Of a stretch of DNA of 64,000 nt, positions 38,789-43,789 are shown one piece after another. The stretch is taken from NCBI RefSeq assembly GCF_001592435.1, contig NZ_CP014750.1:1364001-1428000 (forward strand). The letters are read 5' to 3'. Numbering within the stretch: position 1 is the stretch's first letter; every line of letters starts with the position of its first letter. This stretch comes from Thermococcus peptonophilus (GTDB lineage: Archaea; Methanobacteriota_B; Thermococci; Thermococcales; Thermococcaceae). The notes below the pieces were generated by a model that was not told where the DNA came from, searched no databases, and worked only from the letters and a program-made list of their open reading frames with translations. A program made the translations under genes and the position numbers.

Positions 38789-39931
38789 ATGGTAAGCTCG
38801 TACTTCAAGAACCTGCTCCTCAAGCTGGGTCTTCCAGAGGAGAGGCTAGAGATCCTTGAAGGAAAGGGAGCCTTAGCCGAGGACGAGTTCGAGGGAATCA
38901 GGTACGTCCGCTTCAGGGATTCAGCGAGGAACTTCCGGAGGGGAACCGTGGTATTCGAAACTGGGGAGGCTGTTCTCGGGTTTCCGCACATAAAGCGCGT
39001 TGTTCAGCTCGAGAACGGGATAAGGCGCGTTTTCAAGAACAAACCCTTCTACGTGGAGGAGAAGGTTGACGGCTACAACGTTCGTGTCGTCAAGGTAAAT
39101 GATAAGATTCTTGCGATAACGAGGGGTGGCTTCCTCTGTCCCTTCACGACTGAGAGAATTGAAGATTTTGTAAACTTCGATTTCTTCAAGGACTATCCAA
39201 ACCTCGTCTTGGTCGGTGAGATGGCCGGGCCTGAGAGTCCCTACCTAGTTGAGGGGCCGCCCTACGTCAAGAAGGACATAGAGTTCTTTCTCTTCGACAT
39301 CCAGGAGAAGGGAAGTGGGAGGAGCCTCCCAGTTGAGGAAAGATACAGGCTGGCTGAAGAGTACGGAATCCCGCAGGTGGAGCGCTTCGGCCTCTACGAC
39401 TCTTCCAAGGTTGGGGAGCTGAAAGAGCTTATCGAGCGGCTCAGCGAGGAGAAAAGAGAGGGCATAGTTATGAAGAGCCCGGACATGAAGAGAATAGCAA
39501 AGTACGTCACTCCCTACGCCAACATCAACGACATAAAGATAGGCTCGCACATCTTCTTTGACCTGCCCCACGGCTACTTCATGCAGAGGATAAAGAGGCT
39601 CGCCTTCTATCTCGCTGAGAACCACGTCAAGGGAGAGGAGTTCGAGAATTATGCAAAAGCCCTTGGCATTGCCCTCCTGAGGCCCTTCGTCGAGAGCATT
39701 CATGAAGTTGCCAACGGCGGCGAGGTTGACGAGACCTTCACCGTCCGCGTCAAGAACATCACAACGGCACACAAAATGGTAACACACTTCGAGAGGCTCG
39801 GAGTTGAGATACATATCGAGGACATTGAAGACCTCGGCAACGGCTACTGGGGGATAACATTCAAGCGGGTCTATCCGGACGCGACGAGGGAAATCCGAGA
39901 GCTGTGGAATGGGCTGGCGTTCGTAGACTGA
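38789..39931 (+). CDS. ATP-dependent RNA ligase (archaeal Rnl3 type)
   Basis: 380 residues. Adenylation motif EKVDGYN with nucleotidyl Lys 92, followed by motifs around FLFDI (IIIa) and EGIVMKSPD (IV), and a C-terminal helical dimerisation domain. This is the layout of the Pyrococcus/Thermococcus RNA ligases (Pab1020 family), thought to circularise or join RNA ends. GGTGA precedes the ATG. It stands alone between L10e and the ATPase insertion. Confidence 0.88.
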   Translation: MVSSYFKNLLLKLGLPEERLEILEGKGALAEDEFEGIRYVRFRDSARNFRRGTVVFETGEAVLGFPHIKRVVQLENGIRRVFKNKPFYVEEKVDGYNVRVVKVNDKILAITRGGFLCPFTTERIEDFVNFDFFKDYPNLVLVGEMAGPESPYLVEGPPYVKKDIEFFLFDIQEKGSGRSLPVEERYRLAEEYGIPQVERFGLYDSSKVGELKELIERLSEEKREGIVMKSPDMKRIAKYVTPYANINDIKIGSHIFFDLPHGYFMQRIKRLAFYLAENHVKGEEFENYAKALGIALLRPFVESIHEVANGGEVDETFTVRVKNITTAHKMVTHFERLGVEIHIEDIEDLGNGYWGITFKRVYPDATREIRELWNGLAFVD

Positions 39932-39963
39932 AGGATTTCCATTTATTTCCAAGCTGGGAAAGG

Positions 39964-39971
39964 TTTAAATA
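39964..39971 (+). promoter_or_regulatory. TATA box of the archaeal ATPase gene
   Basis: TTTAAATA lies about 24-31 bp before the ATG at 39995 and directly before the palindrome at 39977-39999, implying a leaderless transcript. Confidence 0.55.
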
Positions 39972-39976
39972 TTCGA

Positions 39977-39999
39977 ATCATGATTATTATAATCATGAT
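39977..39999. promoter_or_regulatory. Perfect 11-bp palindrome across the start codon of the archaeal ATPase
   Basis: ATCATGATTAT (39977-39987), one central T, then the exact complement ATAATCATGAT (39989-39999). It contains the ATG at 39995 and lies where transcription should start, directly downstream of the TATA box. A dimeric repressor bound here would block initiation, so an operator (perhaps autoregulatory) is the most natural reading. Confidence 0.65.
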
Positions 40000-41371
40000 C
40001 CGTAAATTCGTGAACAGAAAACGGGAGCTTGAGGTGCTGGAGGAGCTCTACAGCAGAGGGGCGAACATGATTGTAGTGTATGGGCGGAGGAGAGTTGGTA
40101 AAACAACACTCCTGAGAAAGTTCCTTGAGGGCAAGAGGGGGATTTACTTCCTCTGCTCTCAGAGGGGGTATGAAAAAGACCTCGAACGGTTCTCGGAGGA
40201 AGTGAGTGAGTTCCTTGGCATGCCGGTGAGGTTCGGGAGCTTTGAGGACGCTTTTAGATTCCTTGCAAAGCAGGAAAAGCTCGTAGTGGTAATCGATGAG
40301 TTCCCCTATCTCATAGAGGCCTACAAGCCCATAGTTTCAGTGTTCCAGGAGATAGTAGACCTCATAATCAAGGACTCCCAGGTCACCCTCATCCTCTCGG
40401 GCTCAAGTGTGGGGATGATGGAGCGGGAGGTTCTGGGCTACAAGGCCCCCCTCTACGGCAGGGTTAGGGGTATAATGAAGCTGAAGCCCTTCAGGTTCTT
40501 TGACATGGTGGAGTGGTACGGGAGCGATTTTGAGAGGCTCGTTCGTCTCTACGGCGTCACCTGGGGAGTTCCGAGGTACATGGAGCTTTTAAAGGACGGG
40601 AGCGACGAGGAGATAATCGCGAACTTCTTCGAGCCAACGGCTTTCCTCTTCAACGAGGCGAGGCTTCTGCTGATGGAGGAGCTTAGAAATCCGACGACCT
40701 ACGCCCAGATCATCGAGGCCATAGCCCTGGGGAAGACGAAGCTCACTGAGATCGCCCAGTACGCGATGATGGAGGCGAAGGACGTCCCGGCCTACCTTCG
40801 GGTTCTCCAGGAGCTTGGAATAGTCAAGCGCGAGGTTCCGGTCACCAAAAAGGTCTCGAAGAGGGGGATCTACACAATCGAGGACGAGTACTTCCGCTTC
40901 TACTACCGCTTCGTCAGCCCGCACTACGAGGACATAGAGGCCCTCAATCCTGAGCCCGCCATAGAGGACTTCAGGAAGAACTTCAACACCTATCTGGGGA
41001 CTACCTTCGAAAAGGTCGCGAGGGAGTTCCTGATAATGCTCTCAGCCAAGGGGCACCTTCCCAGCAGGTACCACCGCTTCGGCCGTTGGTGGCACAAAGG
41101 GGAAGAGATTGACCTTGTTGCCTTGAACGAGCGTGAAAAGAAGGCGCTGTTCGTTGAAGTCAAGTGGAAGGATTTGAGCGAGAGGGAAGCGAGAGGGGTT
41201 TTGAAGGACTTGGAGAGGAAGGCTGTGCTTACAGGTCTCGATGGATGGGAGAAGAGCTATGGGCTTGTGGCTAAAAGCGTCGAGGGAAAGGAAGAGCTTA
41301 GAGAAGAGGGCTGGCTGGTTTGGGATTTATGGGACTTCGAAAGGCTTATTTCCTCAAAGACTCAAGTTTAG
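39995..41371 (+). CDS. Archaeal ATPase (AAA P-loop with DUF234-type nuclease-like C-terminus)
   Basis: 458 residues. It starts with the family signature FVNRKRELEVLEELY, Walker A YGRRRVGKTTLL and Walker B VVVIDEFPYLIE. A winged-helix segment follows (TKLTEIAQYAMMEAKDVPAY), and a C-terminal domain holds EIDLVALNEREKKALFVEVK, which fits a PD-(D/E)XK-like motif (D, ExK). These proteins are common in hyperthermophilic archaea, often in variable regions; the role is unsettled. The start codon lies in a 23-bp palindrome. Longer readings upstream would also lie in that palindrome. Confidence 0.88.
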   Translation: MIRKFVNRKRELEVLEELYSRGANMIVVYGRRRVGKTTLLRKFLEGKRGIYFLCSQRGYEKDLERFSEEVSEFLGMPVRFGSFEDAFRFLAKQEKLVVVIDEFPYLIEAYKPIVSVFQEIVDLIIKDSQVTLILSGSSVGMMEREVLGYKAPLYGRVRGIMKLKPFRFFDMVEWYGSDFERLVRLYGVTWGVPRYMELLKDGSDEEIIANFFEPTAFLFNEARLLLMEELRNPTTYAQIIEAIALGKTKLTEIAQYAMMEAKDVPAYLRVLQELGIVKREVPVTKKVSKRGIYTIEDEYFRFYYRFVSPHYEDIEALNPEPAIEDFRKNFNTYLGTTFEKVAREFLIMLSAKGHLPSRYHRFGRWWHKGEEIDLVALNEREKKALFVEVKWKDLSEREARGVLKDLERKAVLTGLDGWEKSYGLVAKSVEGKEELREEGWLVWDLWDFERLISSKTQV

Positions 41372-41406
41372 AGGGTGGTGTCCTTGTCGCTCCTGCCGCT
41401 TACTGG

Positions 41407-42465
41407 ATGCCCATCTTCGGGAAGAAGGAGAGGAAAAAGAAGACGTACGCGGAAATTATAAGGGAACTTTCAGAGAAGTATAGGTTGCCAGAAGATGTCA
41501 TACGAGCAATAGGGAAAGCCCACCTCGCTTTAGACGGATTATGTATTATTTCTGAAGCAGATAGACCGGAAAATAACATAGAGAGGGTAAAAAAGCTATA
41601 GGTGCAAAAAATAGGAAGTGTCATATCAACAACTACAGTTGAAGACCACAAATACCACGAATATATTGTTAGAAATAAGGATCCAAAAGCAAGGGGATAC
41701 CACATACTTCACGGAGTTCTTGCGGTGCTGTTAGCAAACCACACCGGAAAGGCAAGTGAGGAAATAGGATGGGCGGTTGGAGACGCAATATATGAGTACC
41801 TTGTAAACAGGGGCAAGACCATAGAAGACATACAGAAGAATCCGGACGAGTTCGAAAAGACAGTAGTAGAAAAGCTAAAATCATATGAGATAATAAACGA
41901 CACCATGGCAAGAAGCACAAAAAAGGCAATAAAGGATGTGTTGCCCCCCATGATAAAACTCATTGACAAAATGTGGCCAAAGGATCACAACCCCAAGCAT
42001 CTTAACGCAATGGGTGAAGCATTCTCGTCAGATGCTCAAGATCCCATTCGTGTGCTGAAGGCAGCAGGAATAGATGTCACAAAGGAAATAGAAGAGGTGC
42101 GCAACACAATCGCAGAAATCACGGGCAAAAAGCCAAAGGATGAGCGTAAGAAGTCCTCCACTTCAAGATCGAAGAAAACAAAGGCAAAGAGCAAAAAGAA
42201 AGAACCTGCTGCGGAGAAAGTAAACCTCCCCTCCGACGCCCTCCTTGAAGTCCTCTCCATCCTTCAAGCCTTCGAGTTCGCGGACTACTCCGAGAAGGCC
42301 AAGGAGAAGGCCCTCCAGAAGCTCTCCTCAATGATTGAAGGTCTGCTAAAGGACAAACCAACGCCGGAGAACCTCCTGAAGCTCGGCCTCTACGCCTACG
42401 CGGTGGAGCTGATAAGGCGTGGTGAGTTTGAGAAGGTCGAGGAGCTCAAAAAGCTTCAGAACTAG
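41407..42465 (+). pseudogene. Unknown gene interrupted by an in-frame TAG codon
   Basis: One continuous frame is broken only by TAG at 41599-41601: 64 codons before it (MPIFGKKERKKKTYAEIIRE onward) and 287 after (ending VEELKKLQN). The GTG after the TAG has no properly spaced ribosome site, so one original protein of about 352 residues is likely. It is helical, with a Lys/Ser-rich linker (about residues 250-275 of the whole) and no recognised domain. Codons from about 41450 to 42200 are AT-rich while both ends match the genome, suggesting a replaced or foreign middle. It could still be two proteins or a readthrough gene. Confidence 0.55.
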
Positions 42466-42950
42466 ACCAGCTTGGTGCGTTGTAAAGTAGTTGCTTCCAT
42501 TTTTCTCCGTTGCTCGGATGGAATGACAATTCTTCTGGGGGCGTGGGGCGAAGCTCCCCAGCAACCTTTGCTTGCGCAAAGCTTGACCAAAGAAACTTTT
42601 CTGGCAAAAAGTTTCATCAAAAGGTTTTTACTACTACTGAAAAGTTCGGAAATGCTTCGTGCACTCCTTTAATTGTGGCTCCGACTGCGGGTTTGCTTCT
42701 TGAATATTCCTGTTTGGAATGTTTCGACATTATTTTTGGCGTCCGAAGGACGCCGTTTGGGGGCTGAAACACTATAAAACTTGGATTTTCGTGTAAACCC
42801 GCTTCCAACTCGCTGATTTTAAAGTGCACGACTCTAAATCTCTTTCCTATTGAACAGTTTGGCGCTTTTGATGAAACTTTGCTCTGCAAAGTTTCCTTTG
42901 CAAAAAAATTTCACACTCCACAGCCCAAAAGAGGGTGGAAGGGTTCGAAA
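42466..42950. repeat. Hairpin-rich spacer with inverted repeat copies
   Basis: No gene. Perfect hairpins: CTTTGC/GCAAAG (42566-42581), GAAACTTTT/AAAAGTTTC (42592-42615), GGCGTCC/GGACGCC with loop GAA (42738-42754), GAAACTTTGC/GCAAAGTTTC (42873-42895), plus a short TGGGG/CCCCA (42544-42560). The second and fourth share their arms and the flank GTTTCATCAAAAG in opposite orientation, so the spacer is bracketed by inverted copies about 280 bp apart. Possibly a MITE-like element or stacked terminators before the ribosomal cluster. Confidence 0.6.
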
Positions 42951-43018: not shown

Positions 43019-43789
43019 ATGGCCTGGCACGTCTTTATTCCCGATTCGCTCCTTGAAGAGACGGATGATCCAAAGATCAGAACGTACAAGGTCGGACAGA
43101 TAGCCAGGGCCTGCTCAATCTTCGGCGTCGAGCACATCTGGATTTACAGGGCCGGCGGTAGGGACGGAAAGTTCATCAAGACTGTCTTCGAGTACGCGGA
43201 AACCCCCCAGTACCTCAGGAAGAGGCTGTTCCCGCTGATGCCCGAGCTCAAGTACGTGGGAGTGATACCGCCGCTGAGGACTCCCCACCACAAGCTCAAG
43301 GGAAGACCGAGGATCGGCGAAATCCGCGAGGGCTTTGCCTTCAGGAAGGGAAGAAGGATCTACGCGGACATAGGCCTCGACGAGCTGGCGGTCGTTGAAG
43401 GGAACGTCGAAGGGCGCGCAACGTTCAAAATCGTCTCGACAAGACCTCTGAGGGTCGTCCCGACAAAACCAGAGGAATACTGGGGCTACAGGGTTCACCT
43501 CACGAGGAAGTCGCTGGCGAAAACACTTAAAAAGGCCGGGCTTGATCTGGTCATCGCGACCTCGAGGAAGGGTCGCGACATAAGAGAGGTTGAGGTTCCC
43601 CCGCTCGAGGGGGAAGTTGGTTTCGTGTTCGGCTCACCGAGGAAAGGCGTGATGGAGCTCCTCGGCGAGGAGAAGTTTGAGTTCCATCTAATCCTCAACA
43701 CCATTCCAAATCAGCGGACTGAAACGGTCCGCACCGAGGAGGCATTGCTTGCAACCCTCGCGATATTTAATCTCATAAGGAGGGATTGA
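43019..43789 (+). CDS. SPOUT-superfamily RNA methyltransferase-like protein (DUF171 type)
   Basis: 256 residues. The N-terminal [19 protein letters not shown] and C-terminal [17 protein letters not shown] followed by [19 protein letters not shown] match the putative RNA methylase family (PF02598) with a trefoil-knotted AdoMet site; the inserted middle looks like an OB-fold. It is found at the head of the L3 operon in Thermococcales, two bases before rpl3, so a role in rRNA or L3 modification is suggested. The start is the ATG at 43019; longer in-frame readings would contain the TATA box. Confidence 0.8.

Follow-up and report, generated by a model that had tools for sequence, protein, structure and literature searches.

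An interrupted gene downstream of an intact ATPase

A gene that is cut by an in-frame stop codon can be a relic, a pair of genes, a recoded message or a switch that is turned off. Positions 41407-42465 of the 64,000-nt stretch of Thermococcus peptonophilus DNA analysed here (the window, contig positions 1364001-1428000) raise this question. The original prediction described a mosaic gene with an exchanged AT-rich middle, split by a nonsense mutation and lying in an accessory insertion. The split itself is as described: a single premature stop, TAG at 41599-41601, is the only stop within the frame, and the GTG right behind it has no Shine-Dalgarno-like motif, in agreement with the predicted lack of a spaced ribosome site. 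The features of the gene and its surroundings are given in Table 1.

Table 1. Features of the interrupted gene and its surroundings (window coordinates)
Feature	Position	Strand	Remarks
Imperfect palindrome ahead of ATPase	39968..40008	.	20-nt arms, 85% complementary
Intact archaeal ATPase P0003 with DUF234 domain (ATPase_2/DUF234)	39980..41371	+	Upstream neighbour
Shine-Dalgarno-like GGGTGGTG and TTG 41384-41386	41373..41386	+	Probable start of the family
Stretch without counterpart in L103	41398..42866	.	DNA match stops at 41398, resumes at 42866
N-module reading frame (MPIFGKKERKKK...)	41407..41601	+	Ends at TAG 41599-41601; N HMM match 6e-17
N-module by HMM	41407-41586
Segment with frame unlike that of relatives	41539..41567	+	Extra T at start, missing C at end; compensated
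Switch stretch between N-module and core	41587..41697	+	A6 at 41589-41594 and 41606-41611, flanking TAG
Open frame downstream of TAG	41602..42465	+	287 codons
Conserved core, predicted all-helical	41698..42120	+	HMM match 1e-48; AlphaFold2 models
Lysine-rich linker	42121..42237	+	Low model confidence
Exchangeable C-terminal module, helical	42238..42441	+	GC 0.56

The AT-rich stretch is also real, since GC values differ between modules. In the window copy, GC is 0.43 in the N-module, 0.34 between N-module and core, 0.44 in the core and 0.56 in the C-module, with 0.54 upstream; the AT-rich stretch ends between core (to 42120) and C-module (from 42238). AT-richness is a trait of the family and not specific to the window: means over 54 copies are 0.46, 0.44, 0.48 and 0.53 for the same four parts and 0.53 upstream.

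The gene follows a DUF234 ATPase with a palindrome ahead of it, as anticipated. The ATPase (39980-41371) matches PF03008 (122.6 bits) and PF01637 (90.9 bits), both above the curated cut-off, and the PADLOC candidate PDC-S27 (6e-44). In 22 of the 54 copies the end of an ATPase gene lies no more than 120 nt upstream, with a spacing most often of 39 nt (12 of the 22). A 604-aa protein with no Pfam match (L067:3709-5520, +) lies upstream of one open copy and has relatives in four loci.

Translation of the family proteins probably begins ahead of the MFIFGG methionine. A start codon lies exactly 24 nt upstream of this methionine in 37 of the 54 copies (TTG in 33, ATG in three, GTG in one), usually preceded by a GGTGGTG-like Shine-Dalgarno sequence. 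The window TTG at 41384 is 23 nt ahead of ATG 41407, not 24, so the probable start of the window copy is out of frame. The protein read from the probable start begins MSLLPLAGMFIFGGKKK, where lysines come after a short hydrophobic stretch; this LSLLPLAGMFIFGGKKK start suggests that family proteins are perhaps attached to the membrane. The same leader (VVSLSLLALTGMLIFEGKK) is carried by a different protein of 541 aa (L044:3732-5354, +), suggesting that the 5' end itself may be a common recombination landing site.

A mosaic family of Thermococcaceae

A profile search found matches in 43 of 94 Thermococcaceae genomes, some of them to the C-module only. Searched with the core alone, 38 of 115 genomes from the class gave matches, and all those listed lie within Thermococcaceae. 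Judged by these matches, the gene is a member of an uncharacterised mosaic family that is restricted, among the genomes searched, to Thermococcaceae. Fifty-six regions were taken, containing 61 places including the window; 54 copies that have an N-module as well as a core were retained, representing 34 genomes and leaving out six places without an N-module and one without a core match. One genome per species was compared, so all tract and frame differences described below are differences between species.

The family protein has no Pfam or NCBIfam match above cut-off, and nine neighbour, head and family proteins gave nothing above the Pfam cut-off. The sole PADLOC match of the protein, to LeoC, is weak (0.021) and concerns the part downstream of the TAG. 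Weak sequence matches to PDB entries (Vipp1, crystallin) were discarded (E>=0.046), and plasmid and phage collections contain no match to the family. In AlphaFold2 predictions the protein is helical except for two 3-residue strands. An RNase-III-like core finds no support in the fold comparisons: no Foldseek hit in PDB reached E<=0.001 (best 0.035 for the whole model and 1.3 for the core alone), VIA gave best Z scores of 7.2 and 6.0, a range the tool calls common, and the best E value in the viral library was 0.22. The idea came from the VARTIG islands, which are said to recombine beside a distant RNase III homologue.

The mosaic nature of the gene is upheld, and uniform divergence along the protein is not what is seen. 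Core identity follows N-module identity (r=0.67) and is unrelated to C-module identity (r=-0.02; 751 pairs). In 27 pairs the core is below 45% and the C-module above 70% identical; in 23 pairs the core is above 80% and the C-module below 45%. C-modules have been exchanged between different cores, and the exchanged unit is mainly the C-module against a block of N-module plus core, rather than a middle between fixed ends as first proposed. The window C-module shares 88% identity with its counterpart in L045, a copy from another genus whose core is only 18% identical; the best core match of the window copy is L035 (70%), with a C-module identity of 43%. C-modules also occur on other heads with no Pfam match above cut-off (L070:5045-6292, L072:5636-6499, L055:4895-5764), and a lone 87-aa frame in the window's own genome (L002:1501-1761, -) holds a C-module that is 62% identical.

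The chromosomal site lies ahead of the gene at 43019 and ribosomal protein L3, and was read in 41 stretches including the window. Some of the 41 stretches are cut by contig ends; the left marker gene (window 38789-39931) is present in 32. An ATPase is present in 12, a C-module match in 12 (partial in L114 and L127) and N-module plus core in three, which shows the site to be variable. A close relative, L103, has 94% DNA identity over 39901-41398 and has kept the ATPase; the gene is absent. An inverted repeat (42588-42623 and 42865-42900) has 36-nt arms that are 75% complementary, and its right arm begins where the DNA match to L103 resumes.

The reading frame changes between N-module and core

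Of the 54 copies, 42 are interrupted in the stretch that separates the N match from the core match. With the N-module as reference, the core lies at -1 in 19 copies, at +1 in 19 and in the same frame in 16, which does not differ from equal thirds (p 0.85). Four of the 16 same-frame copies have a stop between the two parts: TAG in L046, L092 and the window, and TGA in L047. Twelve copies are open, a term used here for the stretch between N and core; L048, L068, L073 (3459), L090 and L098 are broken elsewhere. Full-length homologues without the stop thus exist, since seven of the 54 copies are open through N and core, one of which, L073 (5937), runs off its contig.

The N-to-core stretch is about 145 nt long (55-243 in single copies). 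The frame changes within the core in only five of 54 copies, and between core and C-module in five of 44. The N match stops short in five copies (L045, L049, L055, L094 and L099), in which the N-module itself may contain the break. In frame-aware alignments the proteins are homologous before and after the break, and the homology often ends on a repeat (e.g. ...DRGDYI / YIRSI...). In a second pass, at least one break was placed before residue 55 in 13 of the 54 copies; some of these may be artefacts because the alignment references are composites. On the tree of 44 cores there are 20 frame-state changes, against 21.0 (sd 1.8) in 2000 shuffles. The frame carries no phylogenetic signal, which implies that it changes faster than the core diverges. 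A reading of the TAG as pyrrolysine was dropped, as most copies are interrupted by frame breaks instead.

Homopolymers are error-prone on some sequencing platforms, and errors at repeats could produce breaks of this kind. Dinucleotide tracts are affected as well, however, and genomes of one or two contigs behave in the same way (4 of 22 copies open). With the same aligner, none of 30 ATPase matches (two partial) from 40 loci has an internal break; in three there is a break no more than 12 residues from an end. There is next to no chance that sequencing error accounts for the pattern.

Another explanation is that there are two genes, one for a small N-module protein and one for the core, coupled through an overlap of stop and start codons. 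In the window the TAG is directly followed by GTG, the two parts are in different frames in 38 of the 54 copies, and an ATG in the core frame lies ahead of the core in 22 of the 42 non-open copies. A start codon together with a Shine-Dalgarno-like motif is found there in 4 of the 42 only, however, and L038, L051, L092 and L096 have no start codon ahead of the core. The protein match is also continuous across the break, and seven of the 54 copies are fused and open. Separate genes were the outcome that the original prediction held to be contrary to a split gene; the differing frames fit them, but neither the rarity of equipped starts nor the continuous match does, and we regard two genes as very improbable.

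Repeat tracts at the frame break

Tracts were defined as mononucleotide runs of at least 7 or dinucleotide repeats of at least 4 units. The switch stretches contain 58 tracts in 8148 nt (7.1 per kb), compared with 195 in the 574549 nt of the loci as a whole, where the switches are counted too (0.34 per kb). There are four in 19077 nt of core and 13 in 7845 nt of N-module. The switch tracts are (TA)n, (GA)n or A-runs; 41 of the 54 switches have one and 13, the window among them, do not. They are short, mostly 7-10 nt with a maximum of 18. The longest pure TA tract of the family (L067:5805-5822, 18 nt) is in frame and codes for YIYIYI.

Tract lengths differ between species in whole units. Within the subfamily of the window copy, the A-run has three lengths: A6 in the window, A7 in L034 and L035, and A8 in L036, L039 and L073. 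From the first GAGAGA to ACCC there are 11 nt in L035 and L036 and 13 in L039; in L034 and L073 there are 15, and GG interrupts the repeat. Both tracts are of different length in L034 and L036, even though their cores share 96% DNA identity. TA tracts differ by 2, 4 or more nt within three groups of copies: L042, L050, L059, L060, L062 and L064; L037, L056 and L065; and L066, L067 and the more distant L069. The A-run ahead of ATACG differs among L047, L058 and L090.

The frames could also be bridged by recoding at the tracts, either through ribosomal frameshifting or through slippage of RNA polymerase, yielding N-only and full-length proteins. What makes this the main rival explanation is the distribution of tracts: 36 of 42 non-open copies have one, compared with 5 of 12 open copies (p 0.004). 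The core is also constrained in out-of-frame copies, and a heptamer, A AAA AAG, stands in phase ahead of the window TAG. Programmed ribosomal frameshifting has one conserved direction and a slippery site, whereas here both directions are equally common (19 at -1, 19 at +1). The tract types differ (TA, GA, A), and TA or GA tracts are not known to act as a ribosomal slip signal. The tract length itself differs in the DNA, and no net shift is required in the window. Recoding is, on balance, unlikely.

Conservation of the core

In 41 of 946 pairs, those above 78% DNA identity, core dN/dS is 0.01-0.26, and pairs in which both copies are off are included; many of the lowest values come with dS above 1. 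Examples are 0.03 for L057 (-1) and L063 (+1), and 0.05 for L086 and L088 (both +1). The 44 one-frame cores, which were picked as one-frame matches, are free of stops in the coding frame, and the other two frames contain 448 and 287. The dN/dS values indicate that the core is kept under purifying selection. For the window copy, dS is saturated.

This bears on the possibility that the copies are ordinary pseudogenes, an accessory family in decay everywhere. Many breaks that look like decay are found in L068, L095, L096 and L097, N-modules are broken too, and the window copy has several lesions. General decay is nevertheless already disfavoured: interruptions are concentrated between N-module and core, the core has low dN/dS, and the one-frame cores, though selected as such, lack coding-frame stops. 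It is a quite improbable explanation for the family.

Probable phase variation and the state of the window copy

We consider it probable that this is a Thermococcaceae multigene family that is phase-variable at the DNA level, and that the window gene is an off copy, a decaying C-module recombinant. The enrichment of tracts, the unit steps, the signal-free frame, the constrained core and the unbroken ATPases are together the signature of repeat-driven phase variation. In such a mechanism, the short tract between N-module and core ((TA)n, (GA)n or an A-run) would gain or lose units by replication slippage, so that some copies have the core in frame (on) but the majority have it out of frame (off). 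The core would be preserved by selection acting in the on-phases, and recombination would swap the C-module between copies. The window gene would then be a C-module recombinant, now off, whose decay shows in the TAG and in several +/-1 changes in and before the switch.

We infer that slippage is the cause and that switching takes place within populations. Unit-step differences are most simply explained by replication slippage, which is plausible here because NucS is present in the window genome and MutS_I gave no match there; the NucS and MutS_I searches found matches in 7 and 11 of 14 control genomes. NucS is described in passages based on actinobacteria as unable to correct indels (PMC8228993; PMC5290159). 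Slippage in vitro by Pyrococcus abyssi polymerases is reported for a hairpin template that carries direct repeats, but PCNA inhibited it (PMC4134008). In the GeneTack survey of prokaryotic frame transitions, clusters linked to repeats were classed as phase variation.

The window copy is off and decaying and is not a clean phase-off allele, given its TAG, +/-1 changes, A6 runs and out-of-frame start. The claim that nothing but the TAG separates the two halves is mechanically true, but it understates the damage. Compared with relatives the copy has one T more near 41539-41540 and one C fewer near 41566-41567, the two cancelling out; the A-runs around the TAG have other lengths, and there is one G fewer ahead of ATG 41407. 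The switch has only two A6 runs, and so no tract by the definition used. The TAG is hence not an isolated nonsense mutation, as had been assumed. It falls in the stretch that is interrupted in 42 of 54 copies, where the family frame keeps changing, and its position is thus more than chance.

Comparison with known systems

The family resembles the contingency loci of Haemophilus and Neisseria, which vary by simple sequence repeats (SSRs), in having a repeat within the coding region, lengths that differ in unit steps, an on/off frame, preserved downstream coding and multiple family members. A repeat at the frame break is found in 41 of the 54 copies, although not in the window copy; whole-unit tract differences that change the frame are seen, between species only; and the family core downstream is under purifying selection. 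The family differs from SSR contingency loci in its hyperthermophilic archaeal host, its short tracts, the additional shuffling of C-modules and the use of three tract types at about one protein position; its tract differences are also known between species only, not within a clone.

Like the VARTIG hypervariable modules described in PMC8416519, the family forms Thermococcales-only accessory islands with C-terminal exchange and many variants. VARTIG proteins are, in the same source, large and predicted to be secreted, with Ig domains, whereas the family here is predicted to be all-helical and is shorter; the word 'frameshift' is absent from the main text of that paper. There is no Pfam Ig match, the predicted structure is helical, and the VARTIG C-terminal motif D[ND]NxxxG[GD] is absent from the window frame, which ends ...EFEKVEELKKLQN. 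Among DUF234/ATPase_2 ATPases (PADLOC PDC-S27), the upstream neighbour is a member; the switching gene belongs to a different, unnamed family and, unlike the ATPase matches, has internal frame breaks. Polymorphic toxin systems are defined by a variable toxic C-terminal domain together with an immunity gene; for the present family, what is observed is C-module exchange.

The DUF234 ATPase directly upstream hints at a conflict or defence role. We infer such a role, together with the ATPase and perhaps at the membrane, from this neighbour (PDC-S27), the module exchange and the switching. The chances are about even that this represents SSR phase variation in Thermococcaceae, possibly the first in archaea, in which a slippage-randomised, probably membrane-attached mosaic family and a DUF234 ATPase form a bet-hedged conflict or defence module.

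Repeat-slippage phase variation has been studied mainly in bacteria, and among the matches listed in a literature search none reports it in Thermococcales. Thermococcus is a genetically tractable genus. The family provides a concrete Thermococcus candidate for phase variation, with dozens of natural replicates in hosts with NucS-type mismatch repair; a 2025 review expresses the hope that loci of this kind will in future be charted across archaeal and phage phylogenies (PMC11868660). If the reading is true, genes read as split or as pseudogenes in Thermococcaceae genomes can be live switches.
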